NCBI GenBank assembly: GCA_023334545.1 | Contig: JAADVB010000081.1 | Span: 1 to 64,000, forward strand | DNA length: 64,000 nucleotides | Reading direction: 5' to 3' | From: Salisapilia sapeloensis | Taxonomy: Eukaryota > Oomycota > Peronosporomycetes > Peronosporales > Salisapiliaceae | In this document: in pieces, positions 7,001 to 33,985 of the stretch | How the letters are laid out: each line of letters opens with the position of its first letter | Numbering within the stretch: position 1 is the stretch's first letter | The notes under the pieces: model-generated | Told to the model about the DNA's origin: nothing | Database searches by the model: none | The model's input: only the letters and a program-made list of their open reading frames with translations | Translations under genes and position numbers: made by a program

Positions 7001-9496
7001 GTGGTTTGATTCCTTGGTACTCGTACTCATCATCTTCTCGTCCTTGGCATTGGCCGTGGACGATCCTATCGCGGACGAAATGGCGCCAAAAGCAATGATT
7101 TTGAAAAAGCTGGACCTTATCTTTAATGTCTTGTTTTTGATCGAAATGCTGCTGAAAGTCTTTGCACTGGGATTGGTGTGGCATAAAGATGCTTATCTGC
7201 GGAACTCGTGGAACATATTGGACTCCATCATCGTAATGTCATCTATGATCATGATGGCAGGTGATGGAAACAAGTTCAAGTTTTTACGGTCTCTTCGGAC
7301 ACTTCGGACGCTGCGACCTCTTCGAATGATCAGCCGTCGACCAGGTTTACGTCTAGTCGTCAACTCTTTAATCGAAGCGATACCGGCAGTCGTGAACGTG
7401 TCGTTTGTTTCGTTGCTAATCTTTCTCATCTTCAGTATAGTTGCCGTGACGTATTTGAAAGGGACGTACTATCGCTGTCAAGGCGATGTCTTCGAGTCCT
7501 TGACAGAGGAGCAGCAAGAGTTCTTGACGTTTCCAGTAGTGTGGACGAACATGACAATGCATCAACAGCAATGGTTTGATGGTAATGCATCTTGTATCGA
7601 GTTCAGCTCCAGTCCAAAAGCAAGAATCACATCGAGATATATATGCGAGTGCTTTGGAGCCGAGTGGGGGCCATCGCTTCTCGAGAATCAAAATTTTGAC
7701 AATGTCGGCTACGCGCTCATGACGTTCTTTGAGATTTCGACGACAGAGGGCTGGGCAGATGTGATGATGGCAGGAATGGATGCTACGGAAGTGGACATGC
7801 AGCCGATTGTAGACTACAACAAGCCCATGTCATTGTTCTTTGTCGCCTTCATTTTCATCGGAAGTTTCTTTGTCGTCAACCTTTTGGTAGGTGTGATCAT
7901 CGACAACTTTAATCGGATGAAGGCAGCATTAGGTGGAGACTTTTTATTAACACCAGAGCAGCGAAAGTGGATTGAAGCTCAGAGAGCTGCTTCTCGAGTT
8001 GGACCTGTACGTATATTAAAGCCGCCCAAGAATCCCGTTCGAAAGTATATATTCATGTTTGTCCGAAGTATCTACTTTGAATGGTTCATCATGGGATGTA
8101 TCATTGGCAATACGCTCTTGATGGCAACAATGTACTTTGGCGTATCATCCCTCCAACAGCTCTTGATGGATATTATAAACTACATCTTTGCCGCCATCTT
8201 CACGGTCGAAGCGATCCTAAAGCTATTTGCATTCGGATGGGCATACTTTGAAGATGCATGGAACAAGTTTGACTTTTTTGTCGTCTCAGGAACGCTCGTT
8301 AGTATCATCGTTGAACGCGTGACGGACACCTCCGTCCGGACACTCACAACGTTCGTACGTATATTTCGCGTCACTCGTATTCTACGACTCGTCAAGGCTT
8401 CCAAAAGCATTCGACAGATCATGCTGACGTTGTACATTGCCCTCCCAGGTCTTAGTAACATCGCATCCATCCTCTTTCTGCTCATTTTTATCTTCGCTAC
8501 GATGGGTGTCCAGCTCTTTGCCACCGTTGAGTTACATAACAACATTGATTCTCATGCAAACTTTCAAAACTTTGGCATGGCTACGTTATTCCTCCTGCGT
8601 GCAGCCACCGGTGAGTCTTGGAACAATTGCATGCACGACCTTGCCACGAGCACCCCAGACTGTGTAAATGAGTTCGTATACGACCCGAACTTGTGCGATT
8701 ACACCACGACGGAAGATTGTGTCCCATTAAAAGGGTGTGGTAACTTAAGCGCCTACGTCTACTTTTGCCTCTACACGCTCCTCGTGACATACGTGATGCT
8801 AAACCTGACTATCGCTGTCATTCTTGAAGGTTTCTCGTCTTCCCATGAAGACGATGAACCTCTGTTTGAACCAGAGCTTTTGGATGAGTTCCGAAAGAAA
8901 TGGGCTGAAATCGATCCTCGTGCAACTGGATTCGTGAGCGTGCTGAAGCTCAAGACGCTTATTAACATTCTGGAACCTCCGCTAGGAAGATATGGGACGC
9001 TACTAGATAAGCACGAGCTACTAAGCTACATGAGTATGAAGCATCAACTAGCTCCTAAGGCTCTAGATATGTACTAATATGTACTTTTTAAATATAGGTG
9101 ACTTGGATCTGCCGCTGTATGAAGGCGAGCGCGTCCTCTTCAAGGATGTGCTACTAGCCATGGCTCGAGAAATGGTGAAAGAGGTGCGTACACTTTTAGT
9201 CGTATAAAGCACGTGTTATCTTATATTCACTTTCGATCTATTAGGCAGTGTCAGGAGATCCGAATGCTATTGTGACAATGGCATCTCCACCAGATGAAGA
9301 GTTTGCGCACGAACGCATTGACTTTTTCGCCCACGAGTACTTTGCCGTCGTCGTCATGCAACGAAGTGTCGTGGACTGGTTACGGACAAAGAGACGATTA
9401 GAAAAGCAGTACATGGAAGAGTATAAGAACAAGATTAAGAAACCGAGTGGTCGACCGAAAAAGGTGCGGGATGCACGCGTGTACACAATTGCATAG
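4037..9496 (+). CDS. Four-domain voltage-gated calcium channel
   Basis: Spliced model of seven exons: 4037-4123, 4179-4570, 4636-6133, 6205-6345, 6417-9033, 9098-9183, 9245-9496; 1690 aa, introns of 55-71 nt. This is a 24-transmembrane CaV/NaV-type pore. All four S4 voltage sensors are seen, for example [13 protein letters not shown] (I), [13 protein letters not shown] (II), [14 protein letters not shown] (III), [14 protein letters not shown] (IV). The pore loops read TQEGW (about 387), TGENW (about 681), TTEGW (about 1148) and TGESW (about 1437), an EEEE ring as in calcium-selective channels rather than DEKA of sodium channels. After S6 IV an EF-hand-like segment ([12 protein letters not shown], about 1536) matches the usual CaV/NaV C-terminal position. 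The C-terminal tail is short and basic. Likely roles in zoospore or hyphal Ca2+ entry are inferred. Confidence 0.93.
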
Positions 9497-9613: not shown

Positions 9614-10154
9614 CTATCTACGTCGTCCTCGGTCTCGACCTCGTCCACTCCGGCGGCTGTCACTTGTACCTACATCAATGCGTTCATATTCATTCTCATC
9701 TATCATACACATGAAACGTACTTGGTTTAAATGCCCAGTTGACGCTAATCTTTTCACCCAAAATCTCTGTGCCATCCAGTCGAGCGATAGCATCCTTGGC
9801 CGCATCGAACTCCTCGAACTCGACGAGCGCATACCCTTTCACGAAACCTGTGCGCCGGTCTAGATTCAAATGCATGTTCTTCACAGGGGCATCTTCACCG
9901 AATGCATCCATCAAGTCATCCTGCTGTGCCTCTTCATGCACACCAGTGACGAAGAGAATCCAGCCTTCGATCGATTTAGCTGCGTCCTGTTTGTCCTCAT
10001 CCTTATAGTCGAGTTTTTCGAAAACCCCGCTGCTGCCACCATATCTCTCAGTATCCATAGCCGCTCGACGAGGACCCCGGCCTTTTACATTATTTCTAGG
10101 ACTCATAGAGTCGCTCGTATCATCCGAATATCGTCCTCCTCGCTCTACTTCCAT
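9614..10154 (-). CDS. RBM8A: Y14/RBM8A-like exon junction complex protein
   Basis: Exons 9722-10154 and 9614-9669 (intron 52 nt), 162 aa. One RRM follows the conserved lead-in SIEGWILFVTGVHEEAQQDD. RNP1 is KGYALVEF, and the helix after it, EFDAAKDAIARLDG, is typical of Y14. The second exon adds the Arg/Ser/Gly tail ending RGRDRGRRR, as in Y14 proteins. Y14 pairs with Mago to lock eIF4A3 on spliced mRNA upstream of exon junctions. Without the splice the frame would run into FHVYDR and stop, losing the basic tail. The intron-rich neighbourhood fits a working exon junction complex. The start chosen gives the usual length; a longer open frame upstream is not conserved-looking. Confidence 0.92.
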
Positions 10155-16572: not shown

Positions 16573-17709
16573 TTATGCATATGGGTTCCATTGACTATGT
16601 CCGCCAGGAGGTGGACGTCTCGAGCTACTCGACATGGTACTACGTCCAGAGTCCGATGGCGTCGCAATGCGTCGACCGTGGTCCACCCACGGACTACGAT
16701 TTCCATACTGATGACTGATCTGGTTGCCTGATCCGAAGGTCGCAGGTTCGTGGCTCGACACGCGCTGCTTGAATTGCTGTTGCTGAACCAACTTGGACAA
16801 GGGCGAAGTAGCTCCGTGACGAGCCGACGAAAGGCTTTGGTAACTTGAAGTTGGCGGCGGGCCATAGCTCTGGCAGCTGGAAGTGGATCGAGATCCAACG
16901 GAGCTGCCACGACGCGCAAGCCACAGCCGGCGCTTCTTCTCCCAATTCTGATCGCGCTTGGAGCTTGTTAATGGTGGCTGCTGCGTCCAAGTAGAAGAAA
17001 CGGTGCTGTTCCCACGAGATAACGAAGCTTCTCTACCAAAGGAAGAGTACGATGGCTGATGGTTCATATCTGCGCCTCCGGTTGGATAGTAGCTATCTCC
17101 TTCCACCCGATGAGCGTCAAGTCGATTGTTAGCTGATGCCGTCGATGGGTGGAGATCGCTGCGATAGCTACCAGCAGTTGGCGGTATCAAAGGATCTTGG
17201 TAACCTCGCATGCCAGATGCAGCTGAGATACTTTCCTCATACGCACCCGAGCTTGGTGGGCTCCGGATCATATGCTCTCCACTTCCATACGCATTCGTGG
17301 TAGGCATAGCCTGATCTCGGTAATAACTTGAAGTCGGTGGCGGTCTGGCCAGCCCAGCTTCGCCACGATAGCTGCCAGAAGTAGGTGGAGCCTGATCTGC
17401 GTAATAGTTTGAAGTAGGAGGCGGTCGGGACATTGCAGTGTCTACACGATAGCTGCCAGAAGTAGGTGGAGCCTGGTCTCCATAGTAGCTAGTAGGTGGA
17501 GGTCTGGACACTGCAGTTTCGCCACGATAGCTGCCTGACGTTTGTGGAGGTTGTACAGCCGATTGCAATCGACTATTCTCGGTCGTACTCGGACAGTCGT
17601 ACATTTTAAAGTGTTGCTCGGAGACGGGCGAGTCGTGGACTTCGCTTCGTGGTGGATCCATCGACCCAAAGCCACCAGCACCTACATACTCATCCTGTTC
17701 AGCGTACAT
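16573..17709 (-). CDS. Low-complexity repeat protein, unknown function
   Basis: Single-exon frame of 378 aa, rich in Ser, Pro, Tyr, Gly and Gln. Imperfect repeats of about 27 residues, each containing a PPPTSxYYxDQ segment and an APPTSGSYRG-like segment, occur three times at about residues 57-140. Degenerate copies continue (PPSSGAYEES, IPPTAGSYRSD). A basic patch (RDQNWEKKRRLWLARRGS) lies near 245. No signal peptide, membrane helix or known domain is seen. The composition resembles disordered scaffold or condensate-forming proteins, but no function can be claimed. The ATG at 17709 starts MYAEQDEYVG. Conserved reading frame across diverged repeats supports a real protein. Confidence 0.7.
   Translation of the reverse strand: MYAEQDEYVGAGGFGSMDPPRSEVHDSPVSEQHFKMYDCPSTTENSRLQSAVQPPQTSGSYRGETAVSRPPPTSYYGDQAPPTSGSYRVDTAMSRPPPTSNYYADQAPPTSGSYRGEAGLARPPPTSSYYRDQAMPTTNAYGSGEHMIRSPPSSGAYEESISAASGMRGYQDPLIPPTAGSYRSDLHPSTASANNRLDAHRVEGDSYYPTGGADMNHQPSYSSFGREASLSRGNSTVSSTWTQQPPLTSSKRDQNWEKKRRLWLARRGSSVGSRSTSSCQSYGPPPTSSYQSLSSARHGATSPLSKLVQQQQFKQRVSSHEPATFGSGNQISHQYGNRSPWVDHGRRIATPSDSGRSTMSSSSRRPPPGGHSQWNPYA
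17364..17530 (-). repeat. Coding tandem repeat, 81/78-bp period
   Basis: The motif CACGATAGCTGCC recurs (plus-strand view) at 17364, 17445 and, as CACGATAGCTGCC again, at 17523. The spacings are 81 and 78 bp, both multiples of three, so copy number can change without breaking the frame of the repeat protein. Confidence 0.85.
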
Positions 17710-28808: not shown

Positions 28809-29630
28809 GTCCAGAGTTTGTAAATTAGGGAAATGATATCCAAGGGAACCAAGCGGCTTTCAAACGGACGGCATGCATGTTGTATGGACGTGAGGGATTA
28901 CACCAATCTTGTCACTTCAAAGTGGTAGTACGATGTATTGATATGCAATTATCGAGTTTCTAATGGCTTGAAGGTGCAAGTACCTTGATGGAGAACGTTC
29001 ACGATGTAGTTGCCACGTTGACCGGGCGTTCGCTTCGATATCATATGCAACGACTTATTGTGGATACGACAGAAGCTCCATACGCCATAAAAGTTTTGGC
29101 ACATGAAGTACCAAGGGTGTCCTCGTCCACGGTAGAGTGGCTCTTGGTGGTAGAAGGTCTCGATTGGAAGGACGCATCGAGCTGTACTGGACATCTTTAT
29201 AAGACCGGTAGAGAGACCAAGGGCGATGCGCATTCGAGCCGGATAGAAGCAATCCAACATTAACAACTGGGTGCACTTGTGTCAAACACTATCACTACCC
29301 TTGCATGGAAGCGTCCGAGTATACATGATTCGCTTCCTTCTCTCTGTACGCCAGTCACTTAGGTCCAAGACCTAATCCAGGTGTATGTCTTCCTACTCAG
29401 AGTTGACATGGTATCGAATCTGATGTTCTCGAAGGTGGTTTCATCAACTATCTTCACGTCTCTCGTCTCGATTAGAAATAGCGAAAGGCAAGGAAGATGC
29501 TATAGCACACACGCCAACTTGCATCAGACCAGAGAGTATTTCGAACGTATAGCCCAAAGCTCGAAAAATCGACTTTGACGTCGTCTCAAAACTTTTCGCA
29601 CAAGCGCACGCCACTTCCGTCGCCTTGTTT
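28809..29630. other. Intergenic, nothing recognised
   Basis: About 820 bp between two divergent genes (acyl-CoA synthetase and the KRE9/KNH-like gene). Short open frames on both strands near 28949-29285 lack ATG-plus-family support. Confidence 0.5.
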
Positions 29631-30479
29631 ATGATACTGACGCCATTACGCCGGGAGCGCCGGCGAGAGGGCAGTCTTGCCTTCATGATACTCAGAGGCA
29701 TGCACACGTCCCCCACCGCAGTCCCCACCCGCGGCTCGACCATCGTCGGCTCGCAGACCTTCTCCGGGTTTCACGGACGCAGCCCACTCTTCTCCGCCAC
29801 TTCAACTACCATATCGCCCGCTTCGACCAATGCGAGTCGAACGCGGTCCTGGCAGTCGCTATTTGACGCGCCGGACGACCCGGCTGGTCGCTACCGGCAT
29901 CGACGTCATGGCGCCCATAGCGCCAATGCTGCACGCGGCATTGTCTCGCGCAATCGCTTCGACAGCCTCGACGACGATTCGGATATGAACGCTGTAGGTC
30001 CATCGCCACTTGAGTTAGCTGCAATACAATCGCAGCGAAAGCCACCAAATAACGCGCGACGGGCGCGGAGACGTAGTGCAACGGACCAGAGCAATCAGCT
30101 TGCACCAGCAAAGTGCTCGAGCTTGATGGTCGCGAGTGTCGAAGCCGTGCCATCAGACGTCCGTGCGCACGCCGAGACGCAGGACGCGAACGAGAATGGT
30201 ACATCTGCAGGTGGCTGGGTCCGTGGGTCACCAGCAGAAGTCCGATGGTCTGTTTTGGACACCTCGATACAAACCGTTCGGTTGGATGTCTGCAATGCCA
30301 AGTGGGATGTCCCGACGACAATCTCGACGGAGGCATCAAACGATGGCACTTTTCTATGGAAACGAGTGTATTGGGGCATGCCGATCACGGACGGATATTA
30401 TATAAACGTCTATGATGCAACGGAAGGCAAAGAGTTACGTCTACTCGCGACAAGTGACTACTTTCGTGTCGTTCGTTAA
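29631..30479 (+). CDS. KRE9/KNH-like domain protein
   Basis: Single exon, 282 aa from the first ATG. Residues 1-190 are basic, Ser/Ala-rich and disordered, with RRERRREGS near the start and an RRARRRS patch. The C-terminal ~80 residues form an Ig-like beta fold resembling the KRE9/KNH (Ser-Thr-rich membrane-anchored) family: VRWSVLDTSIQTVRLDVC, then NDGTFLWKRVYWGMPITDGY and INVYDATEGKELRLL. That family is linked to beta-1,6-glucan in fungi, and oomycete walls are glucan-based. There is no evident signal peptide here, which is odd for a wall protein, so a 5' exon may be missing or the role may differ. Convergent with the BED-RraA gene. Confidence 0.6.
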   Translation: MILTPLRRERRREGSLAFMILRGMHTSPTAVPTRGSTIVGSQTFSGFHGRSPLFSATSTTISPASTNASRTRSWQSLFDAPDDPAGRYRHRRHGAHSANAARGIVSRNRFDSLDDDSDMNAVGPSPLELAAIQSQRKPPNNARRARRRSATDQSNQLAPAKCSSLMVASVEAVPSDVRAHAETQDANENGTSAGGWVRGSPAEVRWSVLDTSIQTVRLDVCNAKWDVPTTISTEASNDGTFLWKRVYWGMPITDGYYINVYDATEGKELRLLATSDYFRVVR

Positions 30480-30586: not shown

Positions 30587-31588
30587 TTAAAATGTCTTCG
30601 GCCGGAAGCGCTGGAATGAACGTTGGAGCTGCTCGCCTTGTTGCACGGCCTCGGCGATCTTGGTGTCCTGCTCTTCCATCATCTCCGCCTTGGACGCCAC
30701 GTCCGCTGCTTTCTCGATCGGAACTACGATCACGCCGTTCGCGTCGCCACGGACGATGTCGCTGTTCCGGACGACGCAGCCCGATACACTGATGGGACAC
30801 CCAACGTCCGCGACGGTCGTGGCACCGCGCTGGCCGTGAACAGACGTACCTTTGGCGAACGCTGGGAAGCCCATGGTGCATATCTCCTGGACATCGCGCA
30901 CGCGACCATCGGTGACGACACCCGCGACGTTGCGAGCTTTTGCTGCCGTCGCGAGTAGTCCGCCGAATACGCCGGTGGTGCTACCTTCGGGCGCACTGAT
31001 GACGATGACTTGACCCATCTCGGTCGTGTCAATGTAGTTAAATGGTAGCTTCCGGACGGCAGCGCCCTTGGCAGGAAGCACTTTGACCGTCAATGCCGGT
31101 CCGCAGATATTCATAGACAAAGGGTTTTCATACCCTCGGATTAAATCTACGTCTACGAGATGTCCTTCAATTTTAATGGACGCCATGGCGTCTGCAATGG
31201 CACATGTCGATAGCTTGGAGAAGCGCAGGAGGAGATCCGTATCGAGATCATCCGTCTCGAGGAAACCTACAACGAGTTAATATAAACTACGTGAAAACTA
31301 CGAGAGTAATTTACTTGGTAAAGCGAGTTGCGCCGAGGCGTCTTGCAACGCGCCTTCGGATGTCATGGGTGGATTTGCACTGCGCTTACTTGTCTTTTGG
31401 TTGCTTACAAAGTTCGGCATGCAGCCGCCGAAACGAAGGTGCTCGGCTAAACGAGTCGCGTTCGCCGCGTACTGCTTTTGACACTTTTTGCACTCGTACC
31501 GGACGAGGTTTTTCCCAGACTCGATACTATCTTCCGTCGGCTCGATGCGTGTGAAAAAGTCGTAGACGTTCGAGGGTTTCCGTCCCAT
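30587..31588 (-). CDS. BED zinc finger fused to RraA-like aldolase domain
   Basis: Exons 31315-31588 and 30587-31266, intron 48 nt, 317 aa. The N-terminal ~60 residues carry a BED-type finger: CKKC, 13 residues, H, 5 residues, C (about 33-56). Residues about 92-317 are an RraA/HMG-aldolase fold: DTDLLLRFSKLSTCAIADAM, then GVVTDGRVRDV with the Arg-Asp pair used for substrate and metal, and RGDANGVIVVP. The splice restores frame exactly and produces the expected RraA N-terminus (LETDDLDTDLLLRFSKLST), so the fusion is not an artefact of reading frame. RraA-fold proteins are aldolases/decarboxylases for hydroxy-keto acids, or bind RNase E in bacteria. BED fingers bind DNA. The start at 31588 is the first ATG; the frame is open further upstream. 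Confidence 0.82.
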
Positions 31589-31805
31589 ATCCTCGGCACC
31601 ACGCACGTCAACTAGCTGGTCGTCCACACTTGTGCGTGATACTTTCGCGTAGTTTTCTCCGCCTTTCGTTTCTTCCCAACAAATTGTGTAACTTATACTT
31701 GTATGCAATGTTTCTCGAAGGTACAAATAACCAACACAGCCGAAAGAAAAGAATTTGGATAACTTCCTAAAAAAGCTTGTTTTTGTCTAGCTTTAAATCA
31801 AACGC

Positions 31806-33923
31806 TTAATCCACCTCTTCCATCGTGCTCTCCTCTTCCTCGCCCTCAAGCGGAGGCAAGTCGTCCATGTTCTCATCCGCAGCATCATCATCGTCGTCGA
31901 TGCTCAGACCGAGCTTAATAAGACGGTGGATACGGTTCGCGAACGTCGTCGGCTCATCGAGGCTGAAGCCAGACGTCAGGAGCGACGTGTCGTAAAGCAA
32001 CCAGATGAGATCCTTGACCGTCTTGTCGCTCTTGTCGGCCTCGGCCTTTTCACGAAGCGCCTTAATGATCGGATGGAGCGGGTTGATCTCCATCGTCTTC
32101 TTCGACGTCATGTACTGCGACGTGCTGCTGTCACGAAGCGCCTGCGCCTTCATGATACGCTCCATGTTGGCAGACCAGCCGTACTCGCCCGTCACGAGTA
32201 CGCACGGGGACTCGACGATACGGTTCGAGATCTCGACCTTCTCGACCTTGTCGTCCAAGACCTCCTTCATGAGCTTGGTAAGACCCTCCGTAGCGGCCTT
32301 AGCCTCCTCGAACGACTTCTTCTCGTCCTCGGTTTCCTCCATCTGGAGTCCTTCCTTGCTCACCGAGATGAGCTTCTTGCCCTCGTACTCCTTGAGCTGC
32401 TGGACGGCGTATTCATCGATAGCCTCGACCATGAACAGCACCTCGTAGCCCTTCTTCTTGAGCTTCTCAATGAACGGAGACGTCTCGACCGCCTTCTTGG
32501 ATTCACCCGTGACGTAGTAGATGCCAGGCTGGTTCTCCGGCATGCGCGAGATGTAGTCGTCGAGCGACGTCATGTCCTCACCGCTCTTGGTCGAGTGGTA
32601 GCGGAGGAGCTTGGCGATCTTGTTACGGTTCGTCGAGTCCTCGTGGATACCGAGCTTAAGGTTCTTGCTGAAGGCCTCGTAGAACTTCTTGTAGTTCTCC
32701 TCGTCTTCAGCGATTTCAGCGAACATCTCGAGGCACTTCTTGACCAAGTTCTTCTTGATCACACGCAAAATCTTGTTCTGCTGGAGCGTCTCACGCGAAA
32801 TGTTCAACGGCAAGTCCTCAGAGTCGACAACACCCTTGACGAAGGACAAGTACTCAGGCATCAAGTCCTCGCAGTTGTCCATAATGAACACACGACGGAC
32901 GTAAAGCTTGATGTTGTTCAGCTTCTTCTTTCCGCCACCTTCAAACATGTCGAACGGAGCGCGCTTCGGCGTGTAGAGGCACGCCTTGAACTCGAGCTGA
33001 CCTTCAACAGAGAAGTGCTTGACGGCCATGTGCTCCTCCCAGTCGTTCGTGAGCGACTTGTAGAACGAAGCGTACTCGTCGTGCGTGACGTCCTCCGGCT
33101 TGCGCATCCAGATCGGCTTCTGGTCGTTCAGGTGCTGCCAGTCGTGCGTCACCTCCTGGATCTTCTTGGTCTTCTTCTTCTTCTCACCATCTTCGTCCTC
33201 ATCAACTTCCTCAACCTTAGGCTTGTCGTCCTCTTCCTTCTCGTCTTCCTCCTCTTCCTCATCGTCAGTCACCTCCTTCTCTTCGGTCTTCTCGACGTAA
33301 AGACGGATGGGGAAACCAATGAACTCGGAGTGCTTCTTGACGAGGTCCTTGAGCTTGCGCTCTTCAAGGTACTCAAGCATGTCCTCCTTGAGCTTGAAGT
33401 CAATGCGCGTACCACGCGGGATGCGCTCGCCCTGGTCCGGGGTGATCGTGAAGGAGCCACCAGCGGCAGACTCCCACACGTACTGCTCGTCGTCATTGTG
33501 CTTGGAGTGGACGACGACCTTGTCGGCAACAAGGTAACCAGAGTAGAAACCGACACCGAACTGACCGATCATAGAGATATCAGCGCCAGCGGAAAGCGCT
33601 TCCATGAAGGCCTTGGTGCCAGACTTGGCAATCGTACCGAGGTTGTTGATCATGTCGGCCTTGGTCATACCGATACCAGAGTCCTGGATGGACAAAATGC
33701 CGTTGGCCTTGTCCGGGATGATCTTAATCTCGAGGTTCTTGTCAGCGTCAAGGACGGACGGGTCCGTAAGCGACGCGTAACGGATCTTGTCGAGCGCATC
33801 ACTTGAGTTACTGATGATTTCACGGAGGAAAATGTCCTTGTTCGAGTAGAACGTGTTAATGATCAGACTCAAGAGCTGGTTGATGTCCGCCGAAAAGGCG
33901 AAGGTTTCTGCTTCCGCGCTCAT
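31806..33923 (-). CDS. HSP90: Cytosolic HSP90
   Basis: Single exon, 705 aa. ATP-dependent chaperone for kinases, receptors and other clients. GHKL ATPase motifs: [40 protein letters not shown] charged acidic/Lys linker (about 215-265) separates the N and middle domains, and the protein ends in MEEVD, the docking peptide for TPR co-chaperones, which marks the cytosolic form. The frame is open upstream to 33971, but the ATG at 33923 gives the usual [16 protein letters not shown] start. Strong bias toward C/G-ending codons fits high expression and creates a long antisense open frame. An Inr match and heat-shock-like elements lie upstream. Confidence 0.98.
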
Positions 33924-33969
33924 GTTTCTCTTGTTTCGGTTGAAAATGCGCGCTTGAGGTGTCCGCGGC

Positions 33970-33985
33970 AACTATGGAAATGACT
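33970..33985 (-). promoter_or_regulatory. Oomycete Inr/FPR-like core promoter of HSP90
   Basis: Minus-strand sequence AGTCATTTCCATAGTT closely matches the oomycete core promoter consensus GCTCATTYYNCAWTTT. It lies about 47-62 nt upstream of the HSP90 ATG, a typical distance from transcription start to start codon. Function inferred. Confidence 0.6.

Follow-up and report, generated by a model that had tools for sequence, protein, structure and literature searches.

A BED-type zinc finger joined to an RraA-type fold in Salisapilia sapeloensis and other oomycetes

What is a zinc finger of the BED type doing on the front of an RraA-type metabolic enzyme? The question is raised by a two-exon gene on the minus strand of the window, the whole 64,000-nucleotide stretch analysed here (positions 1 to 64,000 of contig JAADVB010000081.1, assembly GCA_023334545.1, from the oomycete Salisapilia sapeloensis). 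That this fusion gene is real is well supported by its sequence and by its relatives. The two domains are of known kinds and their architecture already stands in public databases, with no paper on it found in the literature searches described below. As for its role, the reading favoured here, to which we give roughly even chances, is that of an oligomeric DNA-binding protein built on an RraA scaffold, for which catalysis is optional.

Is the joint between the two parts sound? Removal of a 48-nucleotide GT-AG intron from the minus strand (31588-30587) gives a fused protein of 317 amino acids, and the initial annotation was correct in its coordinates and in describing an exon with the motif C33-x2-C36-x13-H50-x5-C56 that leads into the RraA domain. 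It had also called the splice exact; the 48-nucleotide intron is the likeliest, but several in-frame choices emerge when the donor/acceptor pairs are enumerated for donors 31400-31298. An alternative donor, GTAAGC at 31389, used with the same acceptor, would remove 123 nucleotides and yield a protein of 292 amino acids, in which only linker residues are lost and both the finger and the RraA start are kept; a GTGCAA donor at 31380 and some GC donors likewise spare both. The 48-nucleotide intron is preferred because the exon 1 end that it leaves (ASAQLALP) resembles that of relatives (TAASLAVP in the database match P0003). Among these linker-only alternatives, the finger and the RraA domain would be joined either way. 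From the same enumeration, pairs whose splicing would remove part of the RraA core were rejected. The first in-frame ATG of exon 2 lies inside the RraA core ("ADAM"), and an upstream exon is therefore needed; since the 48-nucleotide intron holds an in-frame stop, a transcript retaining it would encode a peptide with the finger alone.

Does the combination extend beyond this gene? A word- and length-limited search of 5.8 billion proteins returned 90 matches. With the finger scored as present if its pattern falls in the first 160 residues, finger and RraA domain occur together in 43 of the best 73 matches (P0003-P0075) and 30 lack the finger; with the window included, 44 of 76 rows are fused. 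The closest named matches come from several oomycete genera, a kinship that supports an oomycete host: Lagenidium giganteum (72% identity), Phytophthora kernoviae (69%), Globisporangium polare (67%), Pythium oligandrum (67%) and Albugo laibachii (64%). Among named matches, the fusion is seen only in the Albugo-Pythium-Phytophthora-downy mildew group. A random open reading frame (ORF) was considered as an artefact and is ruled out by the conservation of both parts across relatives. The 30 finger-less matches comprise 22 outside the fused clade (Phytophthora, downy-mildew and other rows), seven inside it and one from Allomyces. Five relatives' gene models begin at the junction or beyond it (P0032, P0036, P0043, P0066, P0074), and P0032, P0036 and P0043, which begin just past the splice junction, may be exon-2-only gene calls. 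In S. sapeloensis, a single PF03737 match was found in the 19.5 Mb genome.

The initial annotation had described this combination as one not known to its author. The literature agrees with it to the extent that our searches found no paper in which RraA occurs together with a BED zinc finger or with an oomycete, and none on an RraA-like/zinc finger fusion. A search for menaquinone methyltransferase in Phytophthora gave only a paper that appeared off topic, and the main text of Morris et al. 2009 on oomycete domain fusions (PMC2705460) mentions neither BED, RraA, aldolase, menaquinone, methyltransferase nor zinc finger. The architecture is nevertheless widespread and already annotated: P0022, P0060 and P0069 carry both Pfam accessions, P0004, P0011 and P0019 are among those that go under the name "BED-type domain-containing", and P0015 and P0037 go under "demethylmenaquinone methyltransferase". 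The latter is a misnomer for RraA-type proteins.

Is the finger truly of the BED type? The Pfam zf-BED profile (PF02892, cut-off 20.6 bits) scores 20.9 bits on exon 1 alone and 17.5 bits on the whole protein. In an alignment, A1, of 55 rows (the window protein and 54 of the 90 database matches), the profile matches 42 members at E ≤ 0.1. The best PDB match to the finger fold is the BED domain of ZBED1, with a weak score; the fold-match list for the full-length model spans residues 108-278 and is thus silent on the finger. A phmmer search of exon 1 against PDB sequences reached a best E of 0.36, mostly with C2H2 fingers. Unconserved finger residues had been named at the outset as a possible refutation of the fusion; they turn out to be conserved, with the C,C,H,C ligands in each of the 44 A1 rows covering this stretch, an invariance that is partly by construction, since the rows were sorted by this pattern. 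The other 11 rows are gapped there, and A1 holds no broken finger. Across the 44 fused rows, nine positions within residues 5-57 are invariant, the four ligands included. BED fingers carry aromatic residues N-terminal to their ligands, and here position 9 is Y/W in 44/44 finger rows, position 11 Y/F in 43/44 and position 12 F/Y in 44/44. Some fingers have diverged strongly with their ligands kept (P0060, P0068, P0065, P0069, P0070).

The enzyme part is more easily placed. Exon 2 comprises the entire RraA-like Pfam domain (111.8 bits; cut-off 24.5), and its fold matches are RraA-like aldolases. R215 and D216 align to R123 and D124 of the Pseudomonas HMG/CHA aldolase (3noj), which PMC5065237 gives as the essential aldolase Arg and a metal ligand. 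Gly194 stands where 3noj has Asp-102, and yeast YER010C likewise has Gly; E219 follows Asp216 after two residues. The resulting pattern, G-x20-R-D-x2-E/D, we take to be an alternative motif of RraA-type aldolases, reportedly described by Mazurkewich et al. in 2014. The window protein is intact at the active-site positions checked, including the catalytic Arg-Asp, and A1 has Arg in 54/55 and Asp in 51/55 rows. Profile, fold and Arg-Asp thus bear out the initial assignment to an RraA-type enzyme. Two narrower identities were rejected on NCBIfam equivalog cut-offs: the bacterial CHA/HMG aldolase proper (NF006731, 100.7 against 179 bits; TIGR02798, 93.4 against 304.5) and the RNase E regulator RraA proper (NF006875, 45.2 against 136; TIGR02998, 19 against 241.25). 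The protein is filed under the RraA-like superfamily only, because all listed NCBIfam cut-offs are missed. On the fused protein, Pfam at E ≤ 1 gives the RraA-like domain, zf-BED and three further weak hits scoring well below cut-off, none of them a hAT transposase or dimerisation domain.

How well are the parts conserved? Among the 44 fused A1 rows, pairwise identity averages 0.747 for the finger, 0.710 for the RraA part and 0.403 for the linker. In ten Pythium/Albugo-type rows the finger (0.898) exceeds the RraA part (0.826) in 41/45 pairs; in seven Phytophthora rows the two are close (0.841 and 0.832; finger higher in 12/21 pairs); in six downy-mildew rows the finger (0.865) is higher than the RraA part (0.738) in 15/15 pairs. 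On these identities, two constrained domains with a free linker between them form the pattern of a working two-domain protein.

The evidence that carries the favoured reading comes from the downy mildews. Six site positions were compared (193, 194, 212, 215, 216 and 219, of which 193 and 212 are our additions). A non-conservative change is found in six of the seven named downy-mildew fused copies (P0024, P0029, P0035, P0039, P0040, P0044), P0028 being unchanged, and the four zinc ligands are kept in all seven. By comparison, the seven named finger-less downy-mildew paralogs are all unchanged at the six positions (P0074 and P0093 differ at R213), a difference with a Fisher p of 0.005, uncorrected for kinship. 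Counting R215/D216 alone, 3/7 fused copies are changed against 0/7 finger-less ones. Outside the downy mildews, R215 and D216 are intact in 34/35 fused rows (P0038 and P0041 left aside), the exception being P0030, altered at D216; P0037 of P. infestans is altered at position 193. The finger-less group reads GGGRDE at the six positions in 22/23 rows, with Asp for Glu in P0053. The site changes differ between downy-mildew species, which suggests that they arose as separate events. Identity of the RraA part is 0.738 among downy-mildew fused copies and 0.658 among the finger-less ones; the fold is kept in the fused copies, which is what a scaffold role would predict, though a half-relaxed enzyme could give the same identity picture. 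Our conclusions rest on the site residues because the 27 "core" positions, chosen on fungal and finger-less rows, favour the finger-less copies.

How might such a protein work? As we picture it, the N-terminal BED finger would sit on a disordered linker before an RraA, or class II pyruvate-aldolase, fold. RraA-type proteins usually form rings, either trimers or hexamers. Assembled in this way, the fold would show several fingers together and turn a single weak finger into a multivalent DNA binder, the ring doing what a hAT dimerisation domain does in DAYSLEEPER and similar BED proteins. Copies with an intact active site, that of the window among them, may in addition cleave HMG-type acids or decarboxylate oxaloacetate; in most downy mildews seen, the catalytic part would be changing and the binding role remaining. 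Catalysis is probably not the protein's only function. The regulator role proposed in the initial annotation gains support from the downy-mildew copies with an altered site and an intact finger; DNA binding itself, like the oligomer and a nuclear role, is something that we infer.

Could the protein instead be an ordinary RraA-type aldolase or oxaloacetate decarboxylase, with a finger that binds proteins or targets the enzyme and has no part in transcription? BED domains can act in protein complexes, as in ZBED3, R215/D216 are kept in nearly all fused rows outside the downy mildews, and, since this genome yielded a single RraA match, any RraA-type activity needed would come from the fused protein. 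This account is a serious contender that we nonetheless consider unlikely, since most named downy-mildew fused copies alter site residues and keep the finger. The same copies bear on the idea of a metabolite-sensing regulator, in which pyruvate, oxaloacetate or a related keto acid bound to the RraA ring would alter DNA binding by the finger: it draws on the same domain data as the scaffold reading and on the intact site in the window, but the downy-mildew changes would abolish or alter sensing there, and we regard it as improbable. Least credible by far is that finger exon and RraA exon belong to separate transcripts. The fusion in this species is known from genomic sequence alone, and the five relatives' models that begin at or after the junction would fit separate transcripts; against this, 43 database proteins join both domains and exon 2 has no start of its own for the RraA N-terminus.

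Where did the finger come from? In a 65-row tree with fungal and bacterial outgroups, from which P0031, P0032, P0036, P0043, P0055, P0061 and P0062 were omitted, all 33 oomycete rows fall into a single clade (98/96), within which 20 group together at 100/100; 19 of these carry the finger, the exception being P0094, and Albugo branches first (84/87). Thirteen finger-less rows lie outside that clade, 11 of them named from Phytophthora or downy mildews; the outgroups are long and leave the root position among the finger-less rows unfixed. A 76-row tree, with a fused clade of 51 rows (95/100), requires at least eight changes of finger state; nested in that clade are the seven finger-less rows omitted above, which look like partial gene models. 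A single gain is the simplest reading because the finger is absent from the fungal rows and the finger-less ones alike; alternatively, the finger may have been lost in the finger-less paralogs. In one profile search, P0075 and P0002 were part of the profile, so that Allomyces-type scores come out higher. Of its 246 matches, 120 were listed; among these the nearest non-oomycete relatives are fungal (Blastocladiomycota, Mucoromycota), and no Saprolegniales name appears, many proteins being without a source name. Gene transfer between fungi and oomycetes is possible.

The initial annotation had proposed an exon captured from a hAT-type transposase, an origin compatible with any function. BED fingers are described as transposon-derived in PMC3499209, the finger has its own exon, the fused rows form one clade, and this genome holds a transposase-like ORF with BED and DUF659 (L001, G000:C437:15553-18684), the only place in its 19.5 Mb, apart from this finger, where a BED match above the Pfam cut-off turned up. 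Yet a search with the finger region, of low power for a domain of about 50 residues, returned 27 proteins from 30 candidates, all of this family, and the finger gave no significant alignment to that ORF (E 1.6), again in a low-power test. Capture is thus unsupported so far, by two weak tests, and we see it as possible though somewhat doubtful.

Taken together, a tentative history can be drawn, unlikely as it is to hold in all its parts: a single gain of the finger, early in the ancestry shared by Albugo, Pythium and Phytophthora, would have made the enzyme a multivalent DNA binder responsive to keto acids, and among the downy mildews the protein would be turning into a pseudo-enzyme that keeps its DNA-binding role, with the finger-less paralog doing the chemistry. 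Living species offer the stages: a lone fused gene found in this genome, fused and finger-less copies in Phytophthora, and fused copies with an altered site in downy mildews. To our knowledge, metabolic enzymes moonlighting in the nucleus usually do so without a dedicated DNA-binding part. If the inference holds, a switch from enzyme to regulator becomes testable by species comparison, and the point of most interest is a finger that outlasts the active site.

The surroundings of the gene (Table 1) deserve a few words. Directly upstream, on the same strand, lies an HSP90 gene (31806-33971, minus), and a 669-codon open frame opposite it (31797-33806) is probably a mirror of HSP90 codon use. A 308-codon frame (29553-30479, plus) is convergent with the fused gene and has a weak Kre9/KNH-like match (E 0.0009, under cut-off). 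A match to RNA-binding protein 8A (Y14) at 9720-9977 (minus) shares 72% identity with the end of P0017 across 86 residues; the database models P0017 of Pythium insidiosum and P0018 of Phytophthora kernoviae run the fused RraA gene into the Y14 gene, and the two genes, seemingly neighbours in those species, are ~20 kb apart here. In Phytophthora oleae, finger-less and finger copies seem close together (P0048, P0060, P0068, P0027; locus tags 009238 and 009244-009246). A tandem array at 17308-17549 consists of three 81-base units (27 codons) and is possibly a protein repeat.

Table 1. Features of the fused gene, in window coordinates
Feature	Position	Strand	Remark
Exon 1: start Met, BED-type finger, linker	31315..31588	-	start Met aligned with relatives
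BED-type zinc finger, residues 5-57	31418..31576	-	ligands C33, C36, H50, C56
Intron, 48 nucleotides	31267..31314	-	GTAAAT...GTTGTAG, phase 1, in-frame stop
Exon 2: RraA-type domain, stop codon	30587..31266	-	
Pfam RraA-like match (PF03737)	30725..31207	-	sole one found in genome
Active-site stretch G194-x20-R215-D216-x2-E219	30884..30961	-	residues read from alignments

How does the fused protein compare with what is known? Yeast YER010C (2c5q), the Pseudomonas HMG/CHA aldolase (3noj) and the family PF03737 are its nearest points of reference on the enzyme side; the solved chains match the RraA part only, and in contrast to YER010C and 3noj the fused protein adds a zinc finger and a disordered linker before the fold. 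The finger-less oomycete RraA paralogs (for example P0045 and P0051), whose RraA domain is 68-70% identical in Phytophthora, lack both finger and linker, whereas the oomycete proteins called "BED-type domain-containing" and "demethylmenaquinone methyltransferase" have the same architecture and differ in name only. A parallel in design is offered by DAYSLEEPER and the ZBED proteins, with an N-terminal BED finger followed by a second domain, here presumably an oligomerising one. According to PMC3499209, the function of DAYSLEEPER is said to need its dimerisation domain, a point cited there as unpublished. What follows the finger is of hAT dimerisation type in DAYSLEEPER (PMC3499209) and an RraA fold in the fused protein.
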